Shown: piece after piece, positions 38,235-56,429 of the stretch | How the letters are laid out: the number at the start of each line of letters is the position of its first letter | How positions within the stretch are numbered: the stretch's first letter is position 1 | Source of the DNA: a virus | Virus record (IMG/VR): IMGVR_UViG_3300008261_000027 | Location: 54,318 to 118,317 of that record | Reading direction: 5' to 3' (one strand) | Length of the DNA: 64,000 nucleotides | The notes under the pieces: generated by a model | Database searches by the model: none | What the model saw: the letters and a program-made list of their open reading frames with translations, nothing else | Told to the model about the DNA's origin: nothing | Program-made: the position numbers and the translations under genes

Positions 38235-39968
38235 TTATCTTAAAGTGTTAAGATCGAAAGTTTGTAAACCACTTACGTTGATGATACCGAAGTAACGGTT
38301 GTTAACCATTTTCTTTGCATATCTTGTCATGATACCTTTGATTGGTGTCATGTTAAATGGATTGTACATTGTTGGAGTTAATTGTAAAGGTACATATGGT
38401 GCGTAGATGTAACCAGCATCCAATAATGATTTACCTTTGTGACCCACAAGGATCTTACCAGCTGGTAAGTATGGATCACGATATACTTGATAACGTCCAG
38501 CCAAAGTACCGATCTTTTCGATACCCATGTTGTACTGATCTTGCTCTGGGCTAGCATTTGATACGTGGAAATACTCTAAATCATCGAATACTGCAGAAAC
38601 TTCTGAAGATACAACGATCCAGTTAGCACCACCTCTCAAAGTTGACTTATGGATTTGAGCAGAAACCTGATTGATCTTAGTGATCAATGTTTGGTTCCAG
38701 TCTTTTTGAGTGTAACCTACAAATGGAGTGTTTCCAGTTGCACCGTATTTCCACTCATTGTAATCCCACTTAGCTGACCAAGCAGCACCTTTTCTAAGGT
38801 CACGTAAAATTTCACGGTCAACCTCAGCAGCAATTTGCTCAGATAATAAAGCTGTTAATTCAGCTTCAGCATCGATGTTATGGAACGCAGATACGTCCTG
38901 AGCAAGTTCTGGAGACCAGCTAGCTCTTAATTTTCTTTCAGTAACAGATACTGTAACTGAAGCAAGATCAAATGATACTTCACCGATATTGTCTTCAAAT
39001 TCCAAAGTCTCATATGTTCTGTAAGTTACTTTGAAGTTAGCCAAAGCTAAATCGTTAGAGCTGAAATCAGCTGCAGCGAAACCAGTAGTGCTGCTATAGC
39101 TTTCCAAATCTACATTCAAATAGATCTTACCTTCTTCGTCGCAGATGTCGTGGAATCTAGAAAGACCAGAACCACCTTTCACACCATACTCAACGATACC
39201 TTTACCATATTTTTGAGTTACAACGTTGAAGTTTTTAACACCATTGTTTGCAGTTGTGTTACCAGTAACTTCAACTTGAAGAGATGCTAAAAATTCTTCA
39301 GTATCCATAAGGTTACCATTAGCACCAACCATTTTACCTTGACCGTCTTTTGTGAAACCAGAAAGAACAATAATCAAGTTAGATACACTAGATCCACTTT
39401 CATTAGCAGTAGTTGTGCTAGCAGTACCGTTTGAGAATGTTACGAAAGCGTGAGGATTGGCTTCAACTGTTGTGAAAGCACCCTTTGAATAATCGAACAA
39501 ACCTTGATCGTTTGCGTCTGAAGACTCATAAAAACGATCGTAAAGGCTCTTCGCGTTGTCACCATAACCAGCAGTAGCTGCGTCAGAGTTACCTGGCATA
39601 CCGAATGGCTGATAGTGTGCACCACTGTTTCTATCTTGAATTTTAGGTACGAAGTAGAACAATTTACCAATTGGTAAGTTCATTGCTTGTACTGATACGA
39701 TGTCGTTTGCTAACAACTTAGAGAAAACACGACGGATAATTGGGAATACCACTGTCTCGAAAGAACCAGAAGCATCAGAAACTGCTGCTTCGTTGATTAA
39801 ATAAGACGCTTGGTTTTCATACAATTGCGCGATGTTATCTTTTTGGTGACCGTCTAATCCGTCAAGGAATCCTAGGTCATCCCATTTTTTGATGGTATCT
39901 TCTTTGATAACACGAAGGTGCTTAAGACCGATGTTACCAACCATACCTGATTCTAATAATGCTCCCAT
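38235..39968 (-). CDS. gp23: major capsid protein gp23-like
   Basis: 577 residues (T4 gp23 521). N-terminal propeptide ends with a run YENQASYLINEAAVSDASG: cleavage after Ile-Asn-Glu60 fits the T4 gp21 rule (I/L-x-E) and would leave Ala61 as first residue, close to Glu65 of T4 gp23. Then FPIIRRVFSKLLANDIVSVQ, a Gly/Thr-rich insertion (about 150-290), and the shell core (LRASWSPELAQDVSAFHNID, LLSEQIAAEVDREILRDLRK, ASPEQDQYNMGIEKIGTLAG). HK97-fold capsid by family. Last gene of the T4-type head operon 20-21-22-23. Confidence 0.95.
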   Translation of the reverse strand: MGALLESGMVGNIGLKHLRVIKEDTIKKWDDLGFLDGLDGHQKDNIAQLYENQASYLINEAAVSDASGSFETVVFPIIRRVFSKLLANDIVSVQAMNLPIGKLFYFVPKIQDRNSGAHYQPFGMPGNSDAATAGYGDNAKSLYDRFYESSDANDQGLFDYSKGAFTTVEANPHAFVTFSNGTASTTTANESGSSVSNLIIVLSGFTKDGQGKMVGANGNLMDTEEFLASLQVEVTGNTTANNGVKNFNVVTQKYGKGIVEYGVKGGSGLSRFHDICDEEGKIYLNVDLESYSSTTGFAAADFSSNDLALANFKVTYRTYETLEFEDNIGEVSFDLASVTVSVTERKLRASWSPELAQDVSAFHNIDAEAELTALLSEQIAAEVDREILRDLRKGAAWSAKWDYNEWKYGATGNTPFVGYTQKDWNQTLITKINQVSAQIHKSTLRGGANWIVVSSEVSAVFDDLEYFHVSNASPEQDQYNMGIEKIGTLAGRYQVYRDPYLPAGKILVGHKGKSLLDAGYIYAPYVPLQLTPTMYNPFNMTPIKGIMTRYAKKMVNNRYFGIINVSGLQTFDLNTLR

Positions 39969-41247: not shown

Positions 41248-41937
41248 TTATTTTGTTAAAAAACTATCCAGTTTACCCATTAATTTTTTCATTCTATCGT
41301 CCACAATCGGCTTCTGTTCTACTGTTTCATTGAATTTATCCTTATCAGCAACATCCTGGAAAACATACGCACCGGGTGTAGATGGTGACGATACTAAATC
41401 AAAACAAACTAACTCAAAATCATCTTGAACAATATTTTGACCTTTAACCTCTTTCAACGACCCAACACCCCTTGAAGAAATTCCTAATGTGACACCATTT
41501 ATAAGTAACATAGCAGCTTGGTCACCCTTACAGCTAACAATACCCATTTTTTTAAATCCTGGAGATAACAATAGTTTTATTTTACCCATGAGTGTTTTAC
41601 CATCCCACCACGTTTCTAAAATTGTGTGAGAAACTCTATCTAAATCGATAAGAGATGATGAAGGGTGATTTAATTCATTTAGAGCCGAGCCCTTTTTAAT
41701 AATTTCTTGATATTTGGTATTTTCCCTTTTTAATAACATTTCGGGATAAATTCTACCATTCTTATTTGGGGTATCGAATTTTTGCAAAACGGCATACATA
41801 ATAAAGTCCTGATCGGTATCTTTATTCTGCATTTCCGTAATAATATTTTGATTTTGTAGATCACTAGGTGAAATATGCCCAGCGTCATATTCAATTAAAA
41901 TTCCCCTACCAATTTCATTCGGTCCTAATACTTTCAT
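41248..41937 (-). CDS. gp21: prohead core protease gp21-like
   Basis: 229 residues (T4 gp21 212). Serine-protease layout of the T4 prohead protease family: NGRIYPEMLLKRENTKYQEI, ALNELNHPSSSLIDLDRVSH (catalytic His), TLMGKIKLLLSPGFKKM, and GVTLGISSRGVGSL (nucleophile Ser). Cleaves scaffold and capsid proteins after I/L-x-E during head maturation. Located between portal-side core genes and gp22, as in T4. Confidence 0.92.
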   Translation of the reverse strand: MKVLGPNEIGRGILIEYDAGHISPSDLQNQNIITEMQNKDTDQDFIMYAVLQKFDTPNKNGRIYPEMLLKRENTKYQEIIKKGSALNELNHPSSSLIDLDRVSHTILETWWDGKTLMGKIKLLLSPGFKKMGIVSCKGDQAAMLLINGVTLGISSRGVGSLKEVKGQNIVQDDFELVCFDLVSSPSTPGAYVFQDVADKDKFNETVEQKPIVDDRMKKLMGKLDSFLTK

Positions 41938-41980: not shown

Positions 41981-42409
41981 TCAGTCCTTAGTTTTGTTGA
42001 AATTAAATAAAGCTTTATTTGATAAGCAATCGTCTACAACTACTTCAGAAAGAAATTTAATCAAATTTTTCACATTAACAGACTTAACGTCAAAGTGATT
42101 TTCGACAAATAACGTAATTTCTAAGTTCATAAAAGACCTCTTATCTAATTTAATTCCTTTTGTTTTGATGTCTAAATCAACAATAGATTCTTTTTTGAAT
42201 AGATCTTTTAAATCAAACTCTCTAATTAACGCTTTTATTTCTCTTCTAGATTGGGAAATGATTTTATCAAAATTATCATCGCCATCTTTTGGCTTAACCC
42301 ATGAATTTAATTTAATATAAATTGTTTTTAAATTTTTATGGTCTACAGTACCATATCCAATTTTAATTTCCTTGTATTCACCTAAAGGAATAAATTTTCC
42401 GATTTTCAT
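41981..42409 (-). CDS. prohead core-position protein of unknown function
   Basis: 142 residues: KIGKFIPLGEYKEIKIGYGT, IKLNSWVKPKDGDDNFDKII and a C-terminal helix FLSEVVVDDCLSNKALFNFN. It lies between the 42689 gene and gp21, where T4 has gp67/gp68 prohead-core proteins, but it is not acidic-simple like gp67 and the sequence is not recognised. The start is preceded by AT-rich DNA divergent from the bS21 gene. Confidence 0.55.
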   Translation of the reverse strand: MKIGKFIPLGEYKEIKIGYGTVDHKNLKTIYIKLNSWVKPKDGDDNFDKIISQSRREIKALIREFDLKDLFKKESIVDLDIKTKGIKLDKRSFMNLEITLFVENHFDVKSVNVKNLIKFLSEVVVDDCLSNKALFNFNKTKD

Positions 42410-42503
42410 TAATTTTTACATAATTTTACATATATTATGGTGTATATATAATATACGGAATTTTATCCTAATTAAAAAATAAAATAAATAAATTTTAAAT
42501 AAT

Positions 42504-42692
42504 ATGTTAATAGTTGACGTTAAAAAAGATATTGAAATTGCACTGAAGCAATACAAAAACAAAGTACATAAGGTGAAACAGGTTCAACAGCTTAGAGAAA
42601 GACAAGAGTTTGTTAAACCGTCAGTAAAGAAAAGAAATAGTGTTCTTAAAGCTATTTTTGTTCAAAAAACAAAAGATGGTCCTAGAAATTAG
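42504..42692 (+). CDS. rpsU: phage-encoded ribosomal protein bS21
   Basis: 62 residues: MLIVDVKKDIEIALKQYKNK then VHKVKQVQQLRERQEFVKPS and VKKRNSVLKAIFVQK. This is the full bS21 pattern (I-V-x-V-K, E-x-A-L-K-x-x-K, L-R-x-R-x-x-F-x-K-P-S-V-K-K-R, K-A-I-Y-V-Q-K), with Phe52 where I expect Tyr in many homologues. bS21 joins the 30S platform near the mRNA exit. It is the only plus-strand gene within the 37.8-51.6 kb minus-strand block, divergent from the gene at 42409, with its own upstream region but no TATTTAT element. Stop overlaps the next gene's stop (TTAG). Confidence 0.88.
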   Translation: MLIVDVKKDIEIALKQYKNKVHKVKQVQQLRERQEFVKPSVKKRNSVLKAIFVQKTKDGPRN

Positions 42693-43426
42693 TCAAGACC
42701 ATCTTTTAATTGTTTTAATCTAAAATAATTATACTTCGAAATTTCCATTTGTCCCACTTCCGAAACAACTGAATTTAATTTATTTGTTAAATCACTGTCC
42801 TTAGACTCATTTAACATGCTAGTTACTTTGGATAAAATATCTTCTTTTAGTGTTGGTATGTTTTTTTCTAAATCTTCGGTAGATAATGCTAAAATATTTT
42901 TTAATTCTTCTTTTTGATTCTCGTTTAATTTTTCTAAATACAAAGTATTAAAATTATTTGCTAAAACTGAATATAGTAAGTTTTCGTTGATTGTGAATGA
43001 ATTTACTTCATTAGTGGTATTATTTTTCTTTTTTGTTAAATGTTCTACTAGTTTTTTCTTCGCAATTATTTTTTTATCTAAGTTATTAAAATTATCCTCT
43101 TCTAAAAGTTGATCTAAACATGAATATACCTCATTTACTTCACCAGTTACGTCACCTAACTGATTATCTAGTTCCTCACAAAACTTTGATATTTTTTTTG
43201 ATTGAGTCTTTAGCAAACTATTTAATTCCTCAACATATAATTTAGCAGTATCTGAATTATCAAAAAATTTATTTTCAATTTCTTCATAAAACAAATACAT
43301 TTCTTTGAAATCTTTATTTGTAACAATTTTAGATAAAATTTGTTTCATCTCAAATTTCTCACCAGATCCAAAAGATTCTGTTAGTTTTTTTAGAATTTTT
43401 GCTTTAATAACACCTATCTTATTCAT
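42689..43426 (-). CDS. coiled-coil protein at prohead core position
   Basis: 245 residues, helical and Lys/Glu-rich throughout (KFCEELDNQLGDVTGEVNEV, KKIIAKKKLVEHLTKKKNNT, EISKYNYFRLKQLKDGL). It is directly downstream of the portal gene, in the place of T4 gp67/gp68 prohead core components. Helical content suits a scaffold component. Family not recognised. Confidence 0.6.
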   Translation of the reverse strand: MNKIGVIKAKILKKLTESFGSGEKFEMKQILSKIVTNKDFKEMYLFYEEIENKFFDNSDTAKLYVEELNSLLKTQSKKISKFCEELDNQLGDVTGEVNEVYSCLDQLLEEDNFNNLDKKIIAKKKLVEHLTKKKNNTTNEVNSFTINENLLYSVLANNFNTLYLEKLNENQKEELKNILALSTEDLEKNIPTLKEDILSKVTSMLNESKDSDLTNKLNSVVSEVGQMEISKYNYFRLKQLKDGLD

Positions 43427-43428
43427 TT

Positions 43429-45234
43429 TTAATCGTTTAAAATATCTTTTAATTTATTTTCTATTTCATAAATATTCTTCTGTGCCTTTTCTAAATTAAA
43501 AAGATCACTAATATCGTCAACATCACCAAGTACAGCTTTTATTTTACTATACTTTCTTTCACTTAAAGGTTCTGAAGCTTGATCTCCGGCCGCTGGAGAT
43601 GGTGGTGGCCCACCCATAGGCGATTCGCCCCCAGGCATTTCCGCACCCTCAGCACCCTGTGCTTCTAATTTTTGTCTTTCTTCTTCAGATATACCATACT
43701 TACTATCAACCTCGTCAAACACGCCAGATCGTTTAATAACTAATTGCGTATTAGTTAATTCAAATCCCATAGCTCTTTCAAGACGCTGTTGTTGTAAATC
43801 CAAGATAACATCGTTATCACTCATACCTAAAATATTTTTCTTCGCCCAAGTGTGTGATACTGGGAGAATACCAACTTGAGATTGATCCGAAGTGGCGTCT
43901 TTATACAATGTGATTTTTTCTTTCCATTGCTCAATTTTAAGTAAATCGGATTGTGCAGACGGATTTGTTAAACCTAATGTAAAGTTTTCCAATTCATCTT
44001 CTAAACCTAAAAGGTATAAATGAATTAATGCTATTTTATTTAATTCTTGTACCAATGATTTTTGAATTCTATTGATGGTTCTAGCAAAACGAATATCCAT
44101 CAATGCAAGATTCTTACCATCACCAACAACTTCTTCAAATCCTAAATAAGCTTTAGGTATACGAAGTGCCGCCAATAATTTTTTCTGAATATATTCAATA
44201 TCAGCAATTTCACCTAAGTTTTGTGCACCAGCTAAAGTTTCAATTGGACTAGGTGCTGCTGGATCACGAACAGGAATAAAAAAGTCTTGGTCAACCGCCA
44301 TTTGATTGTATCTCATGTCTACATTACCGTTTCTCTGATCAACAACAGTATCTCTTTTAAATTTACTTGCCACACGTTGTACATATGGTTCAATATCCTT
44401 ATCATCCATGTTACCCACAAAAACTTTAAAGACACGTCTTTCAGGTGCCCTTGATGTTCTATAAATTAACATAGCATCTTCAGCAAGAAGTAATTGTTTC
44501 CAGATTCTTCTAATTTTATCCAACATAGAAGTACCATATGGTAGTTTTCTGTCATCACCTAATAATCTAAAGTGAGCCACTTCCCATGATTGGAATTCCA
44601 TGTCTTTATTTTTCCAACTAAATCTTAATTCTCTTACTGGGGCTTTTATATCACCCTGATTTGGTGTTCTGGATTGAGCACCTTCCCATCTTTCTATTTC
44701 AATATTAGGTAGTTGTTGACAACCAATAATACCCTTTTCTGGGTCACTTTTCAAATAAACAAAATTATCACCGTACTTACATAGGTTTCTAGCCCACATT
44801 TGTAAGTTTGTATTAACATCTAACTTATTCTCAAACAAATCTGTTAAAATATTTTTAACTCTTTTTGATTCTGAATAAACTGTTAGAATATCCCCCTTTT
44901 CAGAAACTGTTGTAGATTCCTCAGAATATATGTCTAACGCTGCAGATATTTCTGGAGTAAACTCCATTGATTCATAATCATAATATGCTGCAAGTCTATT
45001 TGGTTCGTAATATACAGATTGATTATATAATGAATTATCCAATTTCGCCCATTTATCATGAAGAAATTGTGATTGTTGAGCCTGTAACTTCGCTTTTTCA
45101 AATTCAACAGGATCATCAGTTTTTAGTAATTCTTCTCTAGAAAAATTAAACGATGGTTGATTAATCGCTTTAGCATTATCAAAACCAAAAATTTTTGTTA
45201 ACCTTTGAAAAATTGTTAAATCGTTATTTGCCAT
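43429..45234 (-). CDS. gp20: portal protein gp20-like
   Basis: 601 residues (T4 gp20 524). Typical gp20 segments: YESMEFTPEISAALDIYSEE, WARNLCKYGDNFVYLKSDPE, SWEVAHFRLLGDDRKLPYGT, MLDKIRRIWKQLLLAEDAML, YRTSRAPERRVFKVFVGNMD, then RIPKAYLGFEEVVGDGKNLA. The protein forms the dodecameric portal for packaging and neck attachment. The C-terminal 90 residues are Pro/Gly/Glu-rich. Followed by the terminase-side gene order 17-20-21-22-23 of T4, apart from a few inserted genes. Confidence 0.95.
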   Translation of the reverse strand: MANNDLTIFQRLTKIFGFDNAKAINQPSFNFSREELLKTDDPVEFEKAKLQAQQSQFLHDKWAKLDNSLYNQSVYYEPNRLAAYYDYESMEFTPEISAALDIYSEESTTVSEKGDILTVYSESKRVKNILTDLFENKLDVNTNLQMWARNLCKYGDNFVYLKSDPEKGIIGCQQLPNIEIERWEGAQSRTPNQGDIKAPVRELRFSWKNKDMEFQSWEVAHFRLLGDDRKLPYGTSMLDKIRRIWKQLLLAEDAMLIYRTSRAPERRVFKVFVGNMDDKDIEPYVQRVASKFKRDTVVDQRNGNVDMRYNQMAVDQDFFIPVRDPAAPSPIETLAGAQNLGEIADIEYIQKKLLAALRIPKAYLGFEEVVGDGKNLALMDIRFARTINRIQKSLVQELNKIALIHLYLLGLEDELENFTLGLTNPSAQSDLLKIEQWKEKITLYKDATSDQSQVGILPVSHTWAKKNILGMSDNDVILDLQQQRLERAMGFELTNTQLVIKRSGVFDEVDSKYGISEEERQKLEAQGAEGAEMPGGESPMGGPPPSPAAGDQASEPLSERKYSKIKAVLGDVDDISDLFNLEKAQKNIYEIENKLKDILND

Positions 45235-45239
45235 ATAAT

Positions 45240-45246
45240 ATAAATA
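45240..45246 (-). promoter_or_regulatory. TATTTAT element close to start codon
   Basis: Minus-strand GTATTTATATTATATGG; 5 nt before the portal ATG at 45234. Confidence 0.4.
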
Positions 45247-47062: not shown

Positions 47063-47069
47063 ATAAATA
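47063..47069 (-). promoter_or_regulatory. TATTTAT element close to start codon
   Basis: Minus-strand GTATTTATATATATG; 4 nt before the terminase ATG at 47058. Confidence 0.4.
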
Positions 47070-50618: not shown

Positions 50619-51404
50619 TTATGATAGAGATAATTTCTTATCAGAAACATCTTTTTTCAAATTCATCAATTTTTCGATGTACCCATTTCTTCTTAATAAT
50701 TTAAATGTAAGGTTTTCATATGAATACTCACCACCTCGAGTTAAGCCACTTTTTCTAAATTTTTTAAGTTTATCTTTCACATCATTAATGGAGTTAGAAA
50801 CATCTTCTCCAGCTTCATATTGACTAACTAATTTATCTATATGCTTTGCAAAATATTCACCCTTTTCTAAGATTTTTTTTGTGTCTATTTCTTCTTTTTT
50901 ATTCGATGGTTTTGATATCCATTCATTGTTTAATATGGAATAAACCCCAGAAGAGGTATATTCATCGTCTATGTCCTGAACGTATATTTCAACATCAAAC
51001 CCCTTTATCTTTATATCATGTTTCTCATTCCACAAACCCTTTTTGGCATCAAAAAACTCTCTCACAATATCAATTAACGCAGTAGATGGTTTATCACCCT
51101 CATTTAATTCATCCATGTCAACCAATATGTGTAAATCAACATCCGAATACTCTGACCAATTGTAATTGGCTAAAGACCCCATTAAAACAACATCATGAAT
51201 AAAAAAGTCAACTCCAGCAAAATCGATAAAATCATCTGTTATTTCCAACAATCTAGTAACTATTTCATTTTTCATTGTATAGTTTGTTTCCCCTCCGTCA
51301 AATATTTCGGGACACAAACGATCCTTCATTTCAAATGTTTTGATAATTTTTTTATCGGTATCAGGGTCAGATAATTCTAAAAGTTCATCTACTAAATTGT
51401 CCAT
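50619..51404 (-). CDS. nucleotidyltransferase-fold protein
   Basis: 261 residues. LMGSLANYNWSEYSDVDLHI (about 85-104) is the pol-beta-type nucleotidyltransferase signature GS..N-W-S-x-x-S-D-x-D, and DVEIYVQDIDDEY supplies the third acid. The helical C-terminal half (KKILEKGEYFAKHIDKLVSQ) may form a substrate domain. Such phage proteins could be tRNA- or small-molecule nucleotidyltransferases, or toxin-antitoxin-like; substrate unknown. Active-site residues look intact. Confidence 0.75.
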   Translation of the reverse strand: MDNLVDELLELSDPDTDKKIIKTFEMKDRLCPEIFDGGETNYTMKNEIVTRLLEITDDFIDFAGVDFFIHDVVLMGSLANYNWSEYSDVDLHILVDMDELNEGDKPSTALIDIVREFFDAKKGLWNEKHDIKIKGFDVEIYVQDIDDEYTSSGVYSILNNEWISKPSNKKEEIDTKKILEKGEYFAKHIDKLVSQYEAGEDVSNSINDVKDKLKKFRKSGLTRGGEYSYENLTFKLLRRNGYIEKLMNLKKDVSDKKLSLS

Positions 51405-51649
51405 TAATTAAATTTTTTAAAACTATATTTGTTTTTAATATTAGCATTTAAAAACGCGCCCTGGGAATCAGCCATTCTAAATTTTGTAAAAAGCTCCCAC
51501 GGAACATTCTCGTATTCATAAATACTTCCATTATTAAACACAATTGTCAATAATGATGTTTCTGTGTTATATGTCGCGGATTTGATATTTGATGATTTAA
51601 TATCAACGTGGATTAATTTACCTTCAATTCTTTCGGATATAATAGCCAT
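51404..51649 (-). CDS. KTSC-domain protein
   Basis: 81 residues: SSNIKSATYNTETSLLTIVF, NNGSIYEYENVPWELFTKFR, and AFLNANIKNKYSFKKF. This is the KTSC domain pattern (short beta-rich domain with a Y-x-Y-x-x-V-P/W core), here covering the whole protein. The domain is often fused or adjacent to RNA/tRNA-related enzymes; function unknown. Stop overlaps the nucleotidyltransferase start, so the two are translationally coupled. Confidence 0.8.
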   Translation of the reverse strand: MAIISERIEGKLIHVDIKSSNIKSATYNTETSLLTIVFNNGSIYEYENVPWELFTKFRMADSQGAFLNANIKNKYSFKKFN

Positions 51650-51667
51650 AATAGTTTTTTATAAAAT

Positions 51668-51674
51668 ATAAATA
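51668..51674 (-). promoter_or_regulatory. late promoter-like TATTTAT element
   Basis: Minus-strand TTATTTATATTTTAT, 18 nt before the KTSC gene start, just after the hsp20 terminator. Confidence 0.45.
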
Positions 51675-51690
51675 ATTTTTGTAAAAAAAT

Positions 51691-51712
51691 AAAGCCCCGA
51701 TTTCGGGGCTTT
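51691..51712 (-). terminator. terminator of the small heat-shock gene
   Basis: AAAGCCCCG / CGGGGCTTT hairpin followed on the minus strand by ATTTTTTTAC, right after the stop at 51716. Confidence 0.85.
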
Positions 51713-51715
51713 TAT

Positions 51716-52078
51716 TTAATTTAAACTAATCAATCTTTCTAAAGTCTTCTTTTTACTTATCGGTAGATTGATTGTTAAAAGACCATTTTCGACTTTACCA
51801 GAAATCTCTTTTTCATTCACATCGTCTGGTATATCGTAAGATTTATTAAAAATTGGAACAAAGTGGTTTGTTTCAGATTTTTGATCTCCATCAAAAGATA
51901 TCTTTAAAACACCTTCTTTGGTCATGATTTTTAAATCATCTTTTGTTAAACCAGGAACAGCTATCATGATTAGGTAGCTATCATCTGTTTTATTAATTTT
52001 TGTTTTTGGTCCGAGATGGTCGATTGTTGCGAACTCATCTAAAATGTTAAAAAACGGGTCTTTAAATAACTTAATCAT
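51716..52078 (-). CDS. small heat-shock protein (Hsp20/alpha-crystallin)
   Basis: 120 residues. Short N-terminus (MIKLFKDPFFNILDEF) then a full alpha-crystallin domain: KTKINKTDDSYLIMIAVPGL, TKDDLKIMTKEGVLKISFDG, VNEKEISGKVENGLLTINLP (ending with the family A-x-x-x-G-L-L-x-I-x-x-P pattern). Holds unfolded proteins for refolding. Divergent from the ClpC-like gene across a 175-bp control region. T4-like phages often carry such a gene. Confidence 0.92.
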   Translation of the reverse strand: MIKLFKDPFFNILDEFATIDHLGPKTKINKTDDSYLIMIAVPGLTKDDLKIMTKEGVLKISFDGDQKSETNHFVPIFNKSYDIPDDVNEKEISGKVENGLLTINLPISKKKTLERLISLN

Positions 52079-52152
52079 AGTTTTATTTTTTTATTTATTT
52101 TATTATTACTACCTTATAAACAAAAATAAAACCAAACGATTGATAATGACAT

Positions 52153-52184
52153 TTAGACATTAGTTAGACATTTTTTTAGACATT
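52153..52184. promoter_or_regulatory. phased direct repeats in the chaperone divergent promoter region
   Basis: TTAGACATT occurs at 52153, 52164 and 52176 (11 and 12 bp apart, one helical turn), with a partial copy GACATT at 52148. It sits 70 bp before the clp gene and 75 bp before the Hsp20 gene. Regular phasing suggests a protein-binding operator array. Confidence 0.55.
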
Positions 52185-52253
52185 TTGTCAGAACATATCT
52201 TTTGTTTTTAAAAAAATAATCATTATTATTGCAATATAAACAAATAATAAATT

Positions 52254-54272
52254 ATGTCGGTAGATTTCAGTTACGAGGATTCCCCAAAACAAAACACCAA
52301 AAACAGAAGAAGTGCAACTAATACACCGGTATTAGACAACTTCTCTAGAGATCTTAACAGATTAGCCAAAGAAGGTAAAATTGATCCTGTGGTTGGTAGA
52401 GATAAGGAAGTTAAAAGAATTGCTCAAATTCTTTCTAGGAAAAAAAAGAATAACGCTGTTATTGTTGGTGAAGCTGGTGTTGGTAAGTCAGCATTGGTTG
52501 AGAAGCTAGCTCTATTAATAACAAATGGCGATTGCCCATCAAATTTAATAGATAAAAGAATTGTTTCACTAGATCTCACTTCATTAGTAGCTGGTACAAA
52601 ATATCGAGGTCAATTTGAAGAAAGAATCAAGGCAATATTACATGAGTTACAGGAAAATACTGATGTAATTGTCTTTATCGATGAATTACACACAATGGTT
52701 GGTGCCGGAAATGCCAGTGGATCAATGGATGCTGCAAACATTTTAAAACCAGCATTGGCTAGAGGTGAAATTCAATGCATTGGAGCAACAACTTTTGATG
52801 AATTTAAAAAACATATTGAAAAAGATGGTGCATTGGTAAGAAGATTTCAAAAAATAATCTTGAATGAACCCACGGAAGCCGAAACTGTTGAAATTCTAAA
52901 TAATCTTAAACAGTCTTATCAATTTTATCATAAAGTGAATTATGAACCAGGGGTTATTGAGACAATAGTTAAGTTATGTTCAAGATATATAACAGATAGA
53001 CAATTTCCCGATAAAGCAATTGATATTTTAGATGAATTAGGATCGGAGAAAAGAGTCATTACTAAAGTACCTGATTCAATAGAAAAACTAAATAATGAGG
53101 TCTCCGAATTAAAGTTAAAAAAGATTGAGGTTGTTAAAAAACAAAACTACGAAATAGCCGCAAAAATAAGAGATGAAGAAAAAAGGGTTGAGAAAAAATT
53201 AGAAGAGGAAAAAGCAAAATGGTTAGACAAGCAAAAAAATAATTTGATTCCGGTTACAATAGAAGATGTTTATACCATGATATCATCAACAACCGGTATT
53301 CCAATCAATAAGATCGATAGTAAAGAGGTTTCAAATTTATTAAATCTGGAATCTATTTTATCTGAAAAAATTATTGGGCAAGACAAAGCAATATCAACAA
53401 TATCTAAAGCGATACGCAGAAATAGAGTTGGTATTAAAGACGGTGCAAAGCCAATAGGATCATTTATATTCCTTGGTTCCACAGGTGTGGGGAAGACATA
53501 CTTAGCTAAAACATTGGCTGAACAAATCTTCGGTTCTCAGGATAAAGTTGTTAGAGTCGATATGAGTGAGTTCATGGAGAAGCATGCCGTGTCTAGATTG
53601 ATTGGCTCACCTCCAGGTTATGTTGGATATGATGAAGGTGGTCAATTAACTGAAAAAATAAAAAATAATCCTTTTTCAGTAATACTATTTGACGAGATTG
53701 AAAAAGCCCATAAAGATGTGTTTAATATTTTGTTACAAATATTAGATGAGGGTCATTTAACAGATTCATTTGGTAGAAAAGTAAACTTTACAAATACCCT
53801 AATTATAATGACATCAAATGTTGGTGCTAAGAAAGTTTCTGAATTTGGTGGTGGTGTCGGATTTGCAACAAATGGTAGCGATCTCCAAAAGGACATTGTT
53901 AAGAAAACCATGATTCAAAAAGCGTTGAAACAACAATTCAATCCTGAGTTCTTGAATAGAATTGATGATATCATTTTATTTGACCCATTAGAAAGCGACA
54001 CATTGAAAAAGATTGTCAAACTAGAGTTAGATAAATTGGTTAAAAGATTAAAAGAAAAAAATTATATTATTTCTTTTGATCAAAGTGTTGTAAATGAAAT
54101 TTTAAACATGAACACTGAAAAAGAATTCGGTGCAAGACCAATAAAAAGAATAATCCAGAATTTATGTGAAGATTTTATTAGCGACGAGATCTTAAAAGGT
54201 AATATTTTAGAAGATAGTCTGGTAAAACTCACTTTTAAAGATGGTTTACAGATAAAAACGAAAATAATATAA
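52254..54272 (+). CDS. ClpC-like AAA+ unfoldase lacking the N-domain
   Basis: 672 residues with two AAA+ modules. Module 1: VVGRDKEVKRI, GEAGVGKSA (72-80), VIVFIDELH. A UVR-like coiled segment around 282-315 (LKLKKIEVVKKQNYEIAAKI). Module 2: GSTGVGKTYLAKT (408-420), YVGYDEGGQLTE, VILFDEIEKAH, MTSNVGAKKV. The folded N-domain of ClpC/ClpA is missing, and MecA-type input is therefore unlikely. The VGF tripeptide (535-537) sits in the loop that in ClpC docks on ClpP. It may redirect host ClpP or act alone as a disaggregase. No ClpP gene in the window. Confidence 0.9.
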   Translation: MSVDFSYEDSPKQNTKNRRSATNTPVLDNFSRDLNRLAKEGKIDPVVGRDKEVKRIAQILSRKKKNNAVIVGEAGVGKSALVEKLALLITNGDCPSNLIDKRIVSLDLTSLVAGTKYRGQFEERIKAILHELQENTDVIVFIDELHTMVGAGNASGSMDAANILKPALARGEIQCIGATTFDEFKKHIEKDGALVRRFQKIILNEPTEAETVEILNNLKQSYQFYHKVNYEPGVIETIVKLCSRYITDRQFPDKAIDILDELGSEKRVITKVPDSIEKLNNEVSELKLKKIEVVKKQNYEIAAKIRDEEKRVEKKLEEEKAKWLDKQKNNLIPVTIEDVYTMISSTTGIPINKIDSKEVSNLLNLESILSEKIIGQDKAISTISKAIRRNRVGIKDGAKPIGSFIFLGSTGVGKTYLAKTLAEQIFGSQDKVVRVDMSEFMEKHAVSRLIGSPPGYVGYDEGGQLTEKIKNNPFSVILFDEIEKAHKDVFNILLQILDEGHLTDSFGRKVNFTNTLIIMTSNVGAKKVSEFGGGVGFATNGSDLQKDIVKKTMIQKALKQQFNPEFLNRIDDIILFDPLESDTLKKIVKLELDKLVKRLKEKNYIISFDQSVVNEILNMNTEKEFGARPIKRIIQNLCEDFISDEILKGNILEDSLVKLTFKDGLQIKTKII

Positions 54273-54275
54273 TTT

Positions 54276-54307
54276 TTTTTGGTAAATACTTTACTTTTTA
54301 CCAAAAA
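54276..54307 (+). terminator. AT-rich hairpin after clp gene
   Basis: TTTTTGGTAAA / TTTACCAAAAA, 11 bp, four bases after the clp stop codon. It lacks a following T tract, so termination strength is uncertain. Confidence 0.5.
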
Positions 54308-54332
54308 CACATATATTTATATGTCTATAGGT

Positions 54333-54424
54333 TATCTTTGCCGAAAAACCTTTTCGTTTTAAAAGTAAGCGGGGTTGAACCCGCCGAAAGACCTAAACCC
54401 CGACATCCTGTTGGGGTTTTTTTT
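54333..54424 (+). ncRNA. small structured RNA or attenuator
   Basis: TATCTTTG (54333-54340) is an exact Bacteroidetes -7 element (TAnnTTTG), though no -33 TTTG is seen. About 75 nt follow with three hairpins: CTTTT/AAAAG, GCGGG/CCCGC (54369-54384) and AACCCC/GGGGTT (54396-54418) with a T tract. CGGGGTT (54370-54376) can instead pair with AACCCCG (54396-54402), destroying the terminator. So it may be a stand-alone small RNA or a terminator/antiterminator switch before the lipoprotein gene. Confidence 0.5.
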
Positions 54425-54432
54425 TACCATAT

Positions 54433-54463
54433 TTTGTTGTTTGGATATTTTTGTTTATATTTA
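54433..54463 (+). promoter_or_regulatory. Bacteroidetes-type promoter candidate
   Basis: TTTG (54433-54436), 19 nt, TATATTTA (54456-54463); one base from the TTTG-N19-TAnnTTTG consensus. The start point would lie almost at the ATG (54471), so the mRNA would be nearly leaderless. Confidence 0.4.
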
Positions 54464-54470
54464 CAATAGT

Positions 54471-54641
54471 ATGAAAAAATATACATTCATTTTGGCCATT
54501 GGTGCTGCATTAGCATTAACGGCGTGTGGTTCAGGATCTTCCACAAACGAAGCAACAGATTCTACTGCTGCACAAGTTGATACAGCTGCTGTTCCAAGCG
54601 CTGACACGACAAGTGTTGTAGACACTTTGGCTGTAAAATAA
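54471..54641 (+). CDS. small lipoprotein
   Basis: 56 residues from ATG 54471. An in-frame start at 54375 would add 32 hydrophobic residues through the RNA element and is rejected. Signal peptide MKKYTFILAIGAALALTACG with lipobox Leu-Thr-Ala-Cys, then a 36-residue Ser/Thr/Ala-rich acidic tail (STNEATDSTAAQVDTAAVPS). Short, disordered lipoproteins are common near Bacteroidetes genes. May sit in the outer or inner membrane. A strong terminator follows. Confidence 0.8.
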   Translation: MKKYTFILAIGAALALTACGSGSSTNEATDSTAAQVDTAAVPSADTTSVVDTLAVK

Positions 54642-54661
54642 GCTAAATGTTGTGAAATTAG

Positions 54662-54691
54662 ATGGGGGTTTAGGCCCCCATTTTTGTTTTT
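54662..54691 (+). terminator. terminator of the small lipoprotein gene
   Basis: ATGGGGG-TTTAGG-CCCCCAT hairpin (54662-54681) followed by TTTTTGTTTT. Confidence 0.9.
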
Positions 54692-54714
54692 CTAAAAAAA
54701 AATTCTTATCTTTA
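54683..54714 (+). promoter_or_regulatory. Bacteroidetes-type promoter candidate
   Basis: TTTG (54683-54686), 20 nt, TATCTTTA (54707-54714), about 16 nt before the ATG at 54731. Confidence 0.45.
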
Positions 54715-54730
54715 ATTAATCTTAAGTTGT

Positions 54731-54874
54731 ATGAAAAAAGAAACATATACAATATCGTTATTTATAATAACAATGGTAATGCTTTGCATGGTTTTTTTTA
54801 TTGCAAAACATTATAAAAATGAAGTAGCGAATCTGGATAAGAGAATTAAAAAATTAGAAACATTAATAAAGTAA
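54731..54874 (+). CDS. small single-pass membrane protein (47 aa)
   Basis: ATG 54731, TAA 54872-54874. MKKETYTISLFIITMVMLCM followed by VFFIAKHYKNEVANLDKRIK: one transmembrane helix (about 7-25) then a charged coiled-coil helix. Two bases before the kinase start, so co-transcribed. Could be an anchor, a phage lysis-type peptide or an inhibitor; function unknown. Confidence 0.65.
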   Translation: MKKETYTISLFIITMVMLCMVFFIAKHYKNEVANLDKRIKKLETLIK

Positions 54875-54875
54875 A

Positions 54876-55298
54876 ATGGACAAAGAATTTACGGGTGATT
54901 TAATTTTATTACGAGGGGTTCCTGGATCAGGTAAAACAACCTTGGGTGAAATTATTTTAAACTGTCCCCAACCATCTGGTACCAAAGTATTATCAGCTGA
55001 TGATTTTTTTATTGATCAAGAAGGTAACTACAACTTTGATCCAAGTAAATTAAAGGAAGCTCATAACCTATGTCAGCAAAAATGCGCTGAAAACATGAGA
55101 AACGGCATTTATAAAATAGTGGTGGCAAACACTTTTACACAAGAATGGGAAATGGAAACATATTTTAAAATGGCGGAAAGGTACAGCTATAGAGTACATA
55201 GTGTTATTGTTGAAAACAGGCATGGTAGTCAAAATATTCATGACGTACCTGACGAAAAGATTCTTCAAATGAAAAATAGATTTGAAGTCAAAATCTGA
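54876..55298 (+). CDS. P-loop kinase (polynucleotide kinase-like)
   Basis: 140 residues: LILLRGVPGSGKTTLGEII (Walker A), VLSADDFFIDQEGNYNFDPS, CAENMRNGIYKIVVANTFTQ. This is the N4BP2/T4 Pnk-type kinase domain, with SADDFF and N-T-x-T-x-x-W-E-M near the base and phosphate sites. Probably phosphorylates RNA or DNA 5' ends. No phosphatase domain. Adjacent to the RNA ligase, as pnk and rnlA act together in T4. Confidence 0.75.
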   Translation: MDKEFTGDLILLRGVPGSGKTTLGEIILNCPQPSGTKVLSADDFFIDQEGNYNFDPSKLKEAHNLCQQKCAENMRNGIYKIVVANTFTQEWEMETYFKMAERYSYRVHSVIVENRHGSQNIHDVPDEKILQMKNRFEVKI

Positions 55299-55310
55299 TG
55301 AGCAAGTTTA

Positions 55311-56429
55311 TTGTTTCATTTACAAAAATTACTAATCCACCACAAACCCCAACAAAAATTGGAATTTTTAAATACATTAGAAAAATATTATCAAGATGGT
55401 TTGTTGTTAAAACAAAAACACCCAAAATTTGATTTAACCATCTGGAATTATTCTCCAAGAGTTCAATATGAAAGATTGTGGGATGATATAACTTTACAAT
55501 GTCGCGGATTAGTTACCAATTCAAAAGGTAATATTGTTGCAAGACCATTTAAGAAGTTTTTTAACTATGAAGAGCATAAGCCAGAAGATATACCAAATGA
55601 AAATTACGTTGTTTATGAAAAACTAGACGGTTCGTTAGGAATTCTTTTTAATTATGAAAACGAATGGATATTGGCCACTCGTGGGTCATTTACATCACCA
55701 CAAGCAATTAAAGGTCGCCAATTGCTTGAAAAATATAATTATAATAGATTAGTATCTGGTTATACATATTTGTTTGAAATAATTTATCCGGAAAATAGAA
55801 TTGTGTGTGAATACGATTTTGAAGATTTAATTTTATTAGGTATGATTAAGACTGAAACTGGCGATGAAATCGATATTCATAACGATAATAATGAAGATAT
55901 TAGATTAAAAAATCTAATAAAAAATTTAAATCTAAAAATTGTATTATTATATAAAACTTGGGGTGAGTCTTATGATTTACTTAAAGAAGAAATTAGTAAG
56001 GATAAAGAGGGATATGTGATTCGTTTTAAAAATGGTTTTCGCATGAAAATCAAGGGCGAAGAATATAAGAGACTACATAGAATACTAACAAACGTTTCTA
56101 ATAGAGATATTTGGATGTATCTTAAAAATGGTGATCCTTTTGATGATTTACTCCATAAAGTACCTGATGAATTTTATAATTGGGTTTCAAATACCGCAGA
56201 CAATCTAGTAAAAGGATATGCTGAAATTGAAAAAAAATCCTTTTTAGATTTTGCCAAAATTAAAAAAAGCTGTAATATTGAAGATAGAAAAAGTTTTGCA
56301 TTAGAAGCATTAAAATGCGATAATCCATCCATTTTATTTTCAATGTTAGACAATAAAGATTATAGAGATATAATCTGGAAGATTATTTATCCATCCTACA
56401 CAAAACCATTTAAAAATGACGAAAATTAA
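55311..56429 (+). CDS. rnlA: RNA ligase 1-like protein
   Basis: 372 residues, like T4 Rnl1 (374). Motif I is EKLDGSLGIL (KxDG, adenylated Lys). Then ILATRGSFTS (III), YLFEIIYPENRIV (IIIa), EGYVIRFKNGFRMKIKGEEY (IV and V). C-terminal helices match the Rnl1 extra domain. A TGA at 55299-55301 is in frame, so only TTG 55311 or a nearby weak codon can start it. The start overlaps a short ORF in another frame. Seals RNA, for example tRNA cut by host defence nucleases. Confidence 0.9.
   Translation: MFHLQKLLIHHKPQQKLEFLNTLEKYYQDGLLLKQKHPKFDLTIWNYSPRVQYERLWDDITLQCRGLVTNSKGNIVARPFKKFFNYEEHKPEDIPNENYVVYEKLDGSLGILFNYENEWILATRGSFTSPQAIKGRQLLEKYNYNRLVSGYTYLFEIIYPENRIVCEYDFEDLILLGMIKTETGDEIDIHNDNNEDIRLKNLIKNLNLKIVLLYKTWGESYDLLKEEISKDKEGYVIRFKNGFRMKIKGEEYKRLHRILTNVSNRDIWMYLKNGDPFDDLLHKVPDEFYNWVSNTADNLVKGYAEIEKKSFLDFAKIKKSCNIEDRKSFALEALKCDNPSILFSMLDNKDYRDIIWKIIYPSYTKPFKNDEN

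Follow-up and report, generated by a model that had tools for sequence, protein, structure and literature searches.

Ribosomes of Bacteroidota hide the anti-Shine-Dalgarno (anti-SD) sequence with the help of ribosomal protein bS21, and the ring at the position of Tyr54 stacks on A1534 of the 16S tail (PMC9976891). In Flavobacterium johnsoniae, the bS21 gene rpsU has an extended Shine-Dalgarno (SD) sequence and is translated best by ribosomes lacking bS21, which leads to autoregulation; bS21-replete ribosomes translate rpsU poorly, and ribosomes lacking bS21 initiate poorly on SD-less mRNA (PMC9976891). The same work showed that in many Flavobacteriales hardly any gene other than that of host bS21 has a strong SD. 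Phages also carry bS21 genes. Chen et al. (2022, PMC9723584) described large Bacteroidetes myophages (clades a-e) in which bS21 lies opposite the flanking hypothetical proteins inside a block of terminase, portal, protease and capsid genes; all 61 phage bS21s were aromatic at the Tyr54 position, with Phe reported in one case, and in related phages the bS21 and capsid genes were highly transcribed together in the late phase. Replacement of host bS21 by phage bS21 has already been proposed (PMC9723584, PMC9976891). A further phage-encoded bS21 is that of Pelagibacter phage HTVC008M (PMC6375957), whose host belongs to another phylum; both PMC9723584 and PMC9976891 cite a report that this bS21 enters E. 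coli 70S ribosomes.

We analyzed a stretch of 64,000 nucleotides (the window), corresponding to positions 54,318 to 118,317 of IMG/VR virus record IMGVR_UViG_3300008261_000027. The bS21 gene and its neighbors are as follows:

38235-39968, minus strand, gp23-like major capsid protein (PF07068, E=4e-74)
41248-41937, minus strand, gp21-like prohead protease (PF03420, E=8e-23)
41981-42409, minus strand, divergent neighbor of 142 aa with a confident beta-beta-beta-alpha-beta-beta-alpha model
42504-42692, plus strand, phage bS21 gene, 62 aa (PF01165, match to 7JIL bS21, 186 related loci)
42689-43426, minus strand, convergent neighbor of 245 aa with an all-helical model, between the portal and protease genes
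43429-45234, minus strand, gp20-like portal (PF07230, E=8e-75)

The product of 42504-42692 (plus strand), MLIVDVKKDIEIALKQYKNKVHKVKQVQQLRERQEFVKPSVKKRNSVLKAIFVQKTKDGPRN, matched Pfam PF01165 (S21) with an E-value of 1.1e-8 and 35.1 bits, above the cut-off of 27, as well as the phage family phrog_21469 'ribosomal protein S21'. Its best solved relative was F. johnsoniae bS21 (7JIL, chain 7jil_z), which was matched over residues 1-59 with an E-value of 1.1e-10 and shares its length class and 47% identity. Because of these three matches, the ORF is not a chance reading frame, and a preliminary description of it as a full-length bS21 of 62 residues was borne out. That description had named the lack of a family match in an alignment with host bS21s as the outcome that would count against it; the alignment was run, and a bS21 family match was found. 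The phage-encoded bS21 is thereby confirmed, and it is the only S21 copy in the whole virus record of 118,317 bp.

The gene lies on the plus strand amid T4-like head genes that are all on the minus strand, as had been described. The order of the block is terminase, gp20 portal, 245-aa ORF, bS21, 142-aa ORF, gp21 protease, 384-aa ORF and gp23, with the 384-aa ORF occupying the scaffold position between the protease and gp23. Contrary to the earlier statement, it is not part of a head operon: it runs opposite to its neighbors and converges with the 245-aa ORF, with an overlap of 4 bp. A fold search with the 142-aa neighbor gave no useful known-fold match, and the structure matches of the 245-aa neighbor were uninformative. 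The presence of bS21 among capsid genes is an already published arrangement (PMC9723584): in the window, as in the myophages of Chen et al., bS21 is on the strand opposite to the flanking hypothetical proteins within the TerL, portal, protease and capsid block and has an aromatic residue at position 54, a likeness judged from the published description, and the window copy differs in having Phe.

Other phages carry bS21 genes as well. By portal protein, the best match among isolates was Microcystis phage Mel-JY01, in which an RpsU is annotated. This RpsU (L296 10599-10826) is also inside the head block; however, its neighbors are encoded on the same strand, and its position relative to the protease is reversed. 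The bS21s of huge phages (LR756501, LR756502 and LR745206) showed 44-54% identity, and no match to the window head genes was found beside them. Farther along the window, 50619-56429 contains a cluster of a nucleotidyltransferase-like ORF, KTSC, HSP20, a ClpA/C-like AAA+ unfoldase, a kinase-like AAA_33 protein and a T4 RNA-ligase-1-like protein; the ClpA/ClpC-like AAA+, HSP20, KTSC protein and RNA ligase with its kinase-like neighbor lie at 51.4-56.4 kb. In a speculation by McNutt et al. (PMC9976891), a protease carried by phages might serve to remove host bS21.

The residue at the Tyr54 position was identified by alignment and a column tally:

42657-42659, plus strand, codon of Phe52, equivalent to the F. 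johnsoniae Tyr54 position

Among 97 distinct phage bS21s, this column contained 94 Tyr, 2 Phe and 1 His, so that it was aromatic in 97/97, and 57 sampled cellular bS21s had 51 Tyr, 3 Phe and 3 His. The window copy thus has the aromatic residue of Bacteroidia-type bS21, with Phe52 in place of Tyr itself. The same Phe was found in L001 and L002, contigs from two different metagenome datasets, and is therefore unlikely to be a sequencing error. In the preliminary description, Phe52 was placed next to the anti-SD contact residue, but it aligns exactly with Tyr54. We rejected the proposal that Phe52 may alter this contact as unsupported, because the exchange of Tyr for Phe keeps the ring and loses the hydroxyl alone, and because Phe (3/57) and His also occur at this column in cellular bS21s.

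To place the gene among its relatives, we compared related IMG/VR loci, whose TerL identity to the window averaged 79%. The bS21 gene was present in 186 of 202 loci, almost all of which shared the gene order of the window, and several of the loci without it were short fragments. Four loci (L137, L196, L201 and L202) kept both bS21 neighbors, separated by a gap of 102-151 bp, and bS21 was absent; no bS21 was found elsewhere on these four contigs. These loci are natural comparison cases for the effect of the bS21 gene. The host set was obtained by a family search in Flavobacteriales and Flavobacterium, and a profile search of genome contigs with the phage bS21 alignment gave one cellular relative only. 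In a tree of the 97 distinct phage bS21s and 77 Flavobacteriales host sequences, phage and host copies split cleanly with a support of 0.90 and no misplaced leaf, which fits an old phage lineage and not a recent pick-up. The median pairwise dN/dS of phage bS21 was 0.135 (1884 pairs) with no pair above 1, a sign of purifying selection.

Phage and host bS21s differed chiefly in the N-terminal helix and loop, and a similar divergence was reported for the phage bS21s of Chen et al. (PMC9723584). In particular, most phage copies have other residues in place of host R14, R18, R21, F23, G27 and T28. The phage family has V (96/97), K (93/97) and Q (95/97) at host positions 23, 27 and 28, respectively. 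Additionally, the constant G9-E10 of host bS21 is missing in the phage family, and the window bS21 is two residues shorter than the host proteins near host position 9.

The leaders of the phage and host genes differed strongly. Pairing stronger than -13 kcal/mol with the 16S tail was taken as the mark of the extended SD of autoregulated Bacteroidota rpsU. The Flavobacterium rpsU leaders had an extended SD in 29/29 cases, with values of -18.8 to -20.6 kcal/mol, whereas neither the window bS21 nor any of the phage leaders of the 97 distinct proteins had one (best -6.5, median +0.7 kcal/mol). We found no published report of this contrast between 29/29 Flavobacterium rpsU and 0/97 phage copies. 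The scan was able to detect a phage SD, because the bS21 of the 735-kb phage LR756501 (L293 8001-8168), unlike the window family, carries a clear SD, AAAGGAGGAT, which scored -12.1 kcal/mol. The absence of an SD on phage bS21 is firm, and its meaning depends on the host: in a wider Flavobacteriales draw, the rpsU leaders were below -13 kcal/mol in only 7/59 loci, and for a host without an SD on rpsU the argument for uncoupling loses force. Within the window, 2/69 genes had SD pairing of -7 kcal/mol or stronger, equal to the mock window, in agreement with the earlier view that the phage mRNAs mostly lack SD motifs. The accompanying suggestion that this would shift initiation toward phage mRNAs is insufficient by itself, because Flavobacteriales hosts are SD-less too (PMC9976891), and SD-lessness alone cannot steer ribosomes from host to phage mRNA.

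The region upstream of bS21 contains the following features:

42410-42503, no strand assigned, divergent intergenic region of 94 bp between bS21 and the 142-aa ORF, with no SD before bS21 and no sense-strand TAYTTAT
42435-42443, minus strand, ACACCATAA, belonging to a motif that is conserved across the family upstream of the 142-aa ORF

The preliminary description had given bS21 its own divergent promoter region without a late TATTTAT; the divergent region is present, and no such element was found upstream on the sense strand. In the window, many start codons are preceded by TATTTAT at a distance of 11-13 nt or 23-29 nt. Among the relatives, TA[TC]TTAT was found within 35 nt of the bS21 ATG in 54/83 distinct family upstream regions, mostly at -12; the window bS21 differs from most of them, and the missing element is a trait of its bS21 sub-clade. 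TAYTTATA also preceded the portal (79/84 upstream regions) and terminase (48/55) genes of the relatives, mostly 11-12 nt from the ATG; for the protease and the 384-aa ORF, the distance was 21-34 nt. Sites of this type are present before the portal and terminase genes of the window at 45240-45246 and 47063-47069. If the element is a T4-type late promoter, then by the geometry of T4 late promoters a position at -11/-12 would make transcription begin at the ATG or directly beside it, and the late mRNAs of portal and terminase would be leaderless or nearly so. Of 89 distinct intergenic regions of relatives, 83 contained the motif TTATGGTG. In front of the 142-aa ORF, TTATGGTG(T) and, after it, an A-rich box (minus strand ACACCATAA) are both retained in loci without bS21. 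The best plus-strand match to a sigma-70-type promoter, at 42425-42452, was discounted, as the scan gave 44 sites against 53 expected. An Rfam search of the head block gave no match.

At the other end of the gene, the convergent stop codons lie within a hairpin:

42671-42707, no strand assigned, inverted repeat spanning the two stop codons (arms 42671-42681 and 42697-42707), identified by folding and in relatives

This segment folded far better than shuffled sequences on either strand (z -4.0 and -5.8), a T-rich stretch follows it on the minus strand, and three stem pairs were changed on both sides across relatives. A stem of at least 9 bp was present in 60/63 distinct loci with a bS21 ending KNGL- or KDG-like versus 0/22 others, an association that follows a few clades, does not represent that many independent events, and is to be read with the fact that one arm itself encodes the bS21 C-terminal residues. 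The 245-aa protein ends in LKNGLD or LKNGLN in most loci, and through the repeat bS21 and this protein share KNGLD/N ends in most relatives. The repeat is probably a terminator acting in both directions, and its arms form part of the coding sequence of both genes. Chen et al. linked the C-terminal conservation of bS21 to ribosome substitution (PMC9723584); the terminator-like hairpin may offer an alternative reason for the conserved C-terminus (KNGLD), and it cautions against taking this C-terminus as a ribosome-binding feature. We found no published report of the overlap of the conserved C-terminus with a hairpin common to the convergent neighbor.

The Bacteroidota-type bS21 and the SD-less genes of the phage fit a Bacteroidota host, and the phage, a member of the T4-like myophage group, probably infects a Flavobacterium-like Bacteroidota. 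In such a host, replacement of host bS21 by the phage copy is plausible. We favor a model in which bS21 is supplied late and independently of host feedback, so that ribosomes stay replete for SD-less mRNAs, and assign this reading a probability of about 0.5. The phage would produce bS21 in the late phase from an mRNA without an SD, and because it is SD-less this mRNA would be translatable by bS21-replete ribosomes, in which the anti-SD is hidden. The host loop depends on the extended SD, through which rpsU is best translated when ribosomes have no bS21; the phage gene would stand outside this loop. Its product would presumably take the place of host bS21 in the 30S subunit, where the aromatic residue at the Tyr54 position would keep the 16S 3' tail folded away and the ribosomes would stay competent for SD-less phage mRNAs. 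With ribosomes kept replete, host rpsU translation would probably be held down. A further possibility, on which we are more doubtful, is an override in which an SD-less late bS21, by keeping the anti-SD hidden, is made by the very replete ribosomes that repress rpsU, locking the pool in the phage-bS21 form. The late supply of bS21 is supported by its identity, the gene order, the absence of an SD in 97/97, the SD-less genes of the phage, the conserved aromatic residue, the single phage clade and purifying selection, together with the autoregulation and poor SD-less initiation without bS21 (PMC9976891) and the late expression (PMC9723584) reported by others. We infer late timing for the window bS21, where the TAYTTAT of most relatives is missing.

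Several points speak against this late supply: rpsU leaders below -13 kcal/mol were in the minority in the wider Flavobacteriales draw, the window copy lacks the TAYTTAT of most relatives, SD-lessness is the default for genes of these phages, and the divergent N-terminal helix and loop may reflect an altered function rather than plain substitution. The main rival is the altered mRNA choice of Chen et al., in which the changed N-terminal helix, located at the mRNA path, would produce specialized ribosomes that prefer phage mRNA. The clustering of phage-specific residues in the N-terminal helix and loop, the loss of host arginines 14, 18 and 21, and late co-expression in relatives (PMC9723584) agree with it; however, no start-region feature was found that separates the window genes from the SD-less, A-rich genes of the host (PMC9976891), and we regard this rival as a tentative proposal. 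A job outside the ribosome, as an RNA-binding morphogenesis or virion protein or a regulator tied to the adjoining head genes, would suit the fixed place among head genes and the long co-inheritance, and packaging into virions was raised by Chen et al. (PMC9723584). We consider it improbable, as the 16S-contact residue and core S21 motif are kept, which such a role would not need, and some relatives manage without the gene. The four loci without bS21 would also be expected of a passenger, a host gene captured long ago and retained without benefit, but purifying selection (median dN/dS well below 1 and no pair above it) and the retention of bS21 in 186 of 202 loci, with short fragments among the rest, make this explanation hardly credible.

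Being free of the rpsU feedback signal, the phage could make bS21 when the host would hold back. A phage bS21 without the SD of the host gene thus suggests a simple and testable viral bypass of a ribosomal feedback loop.
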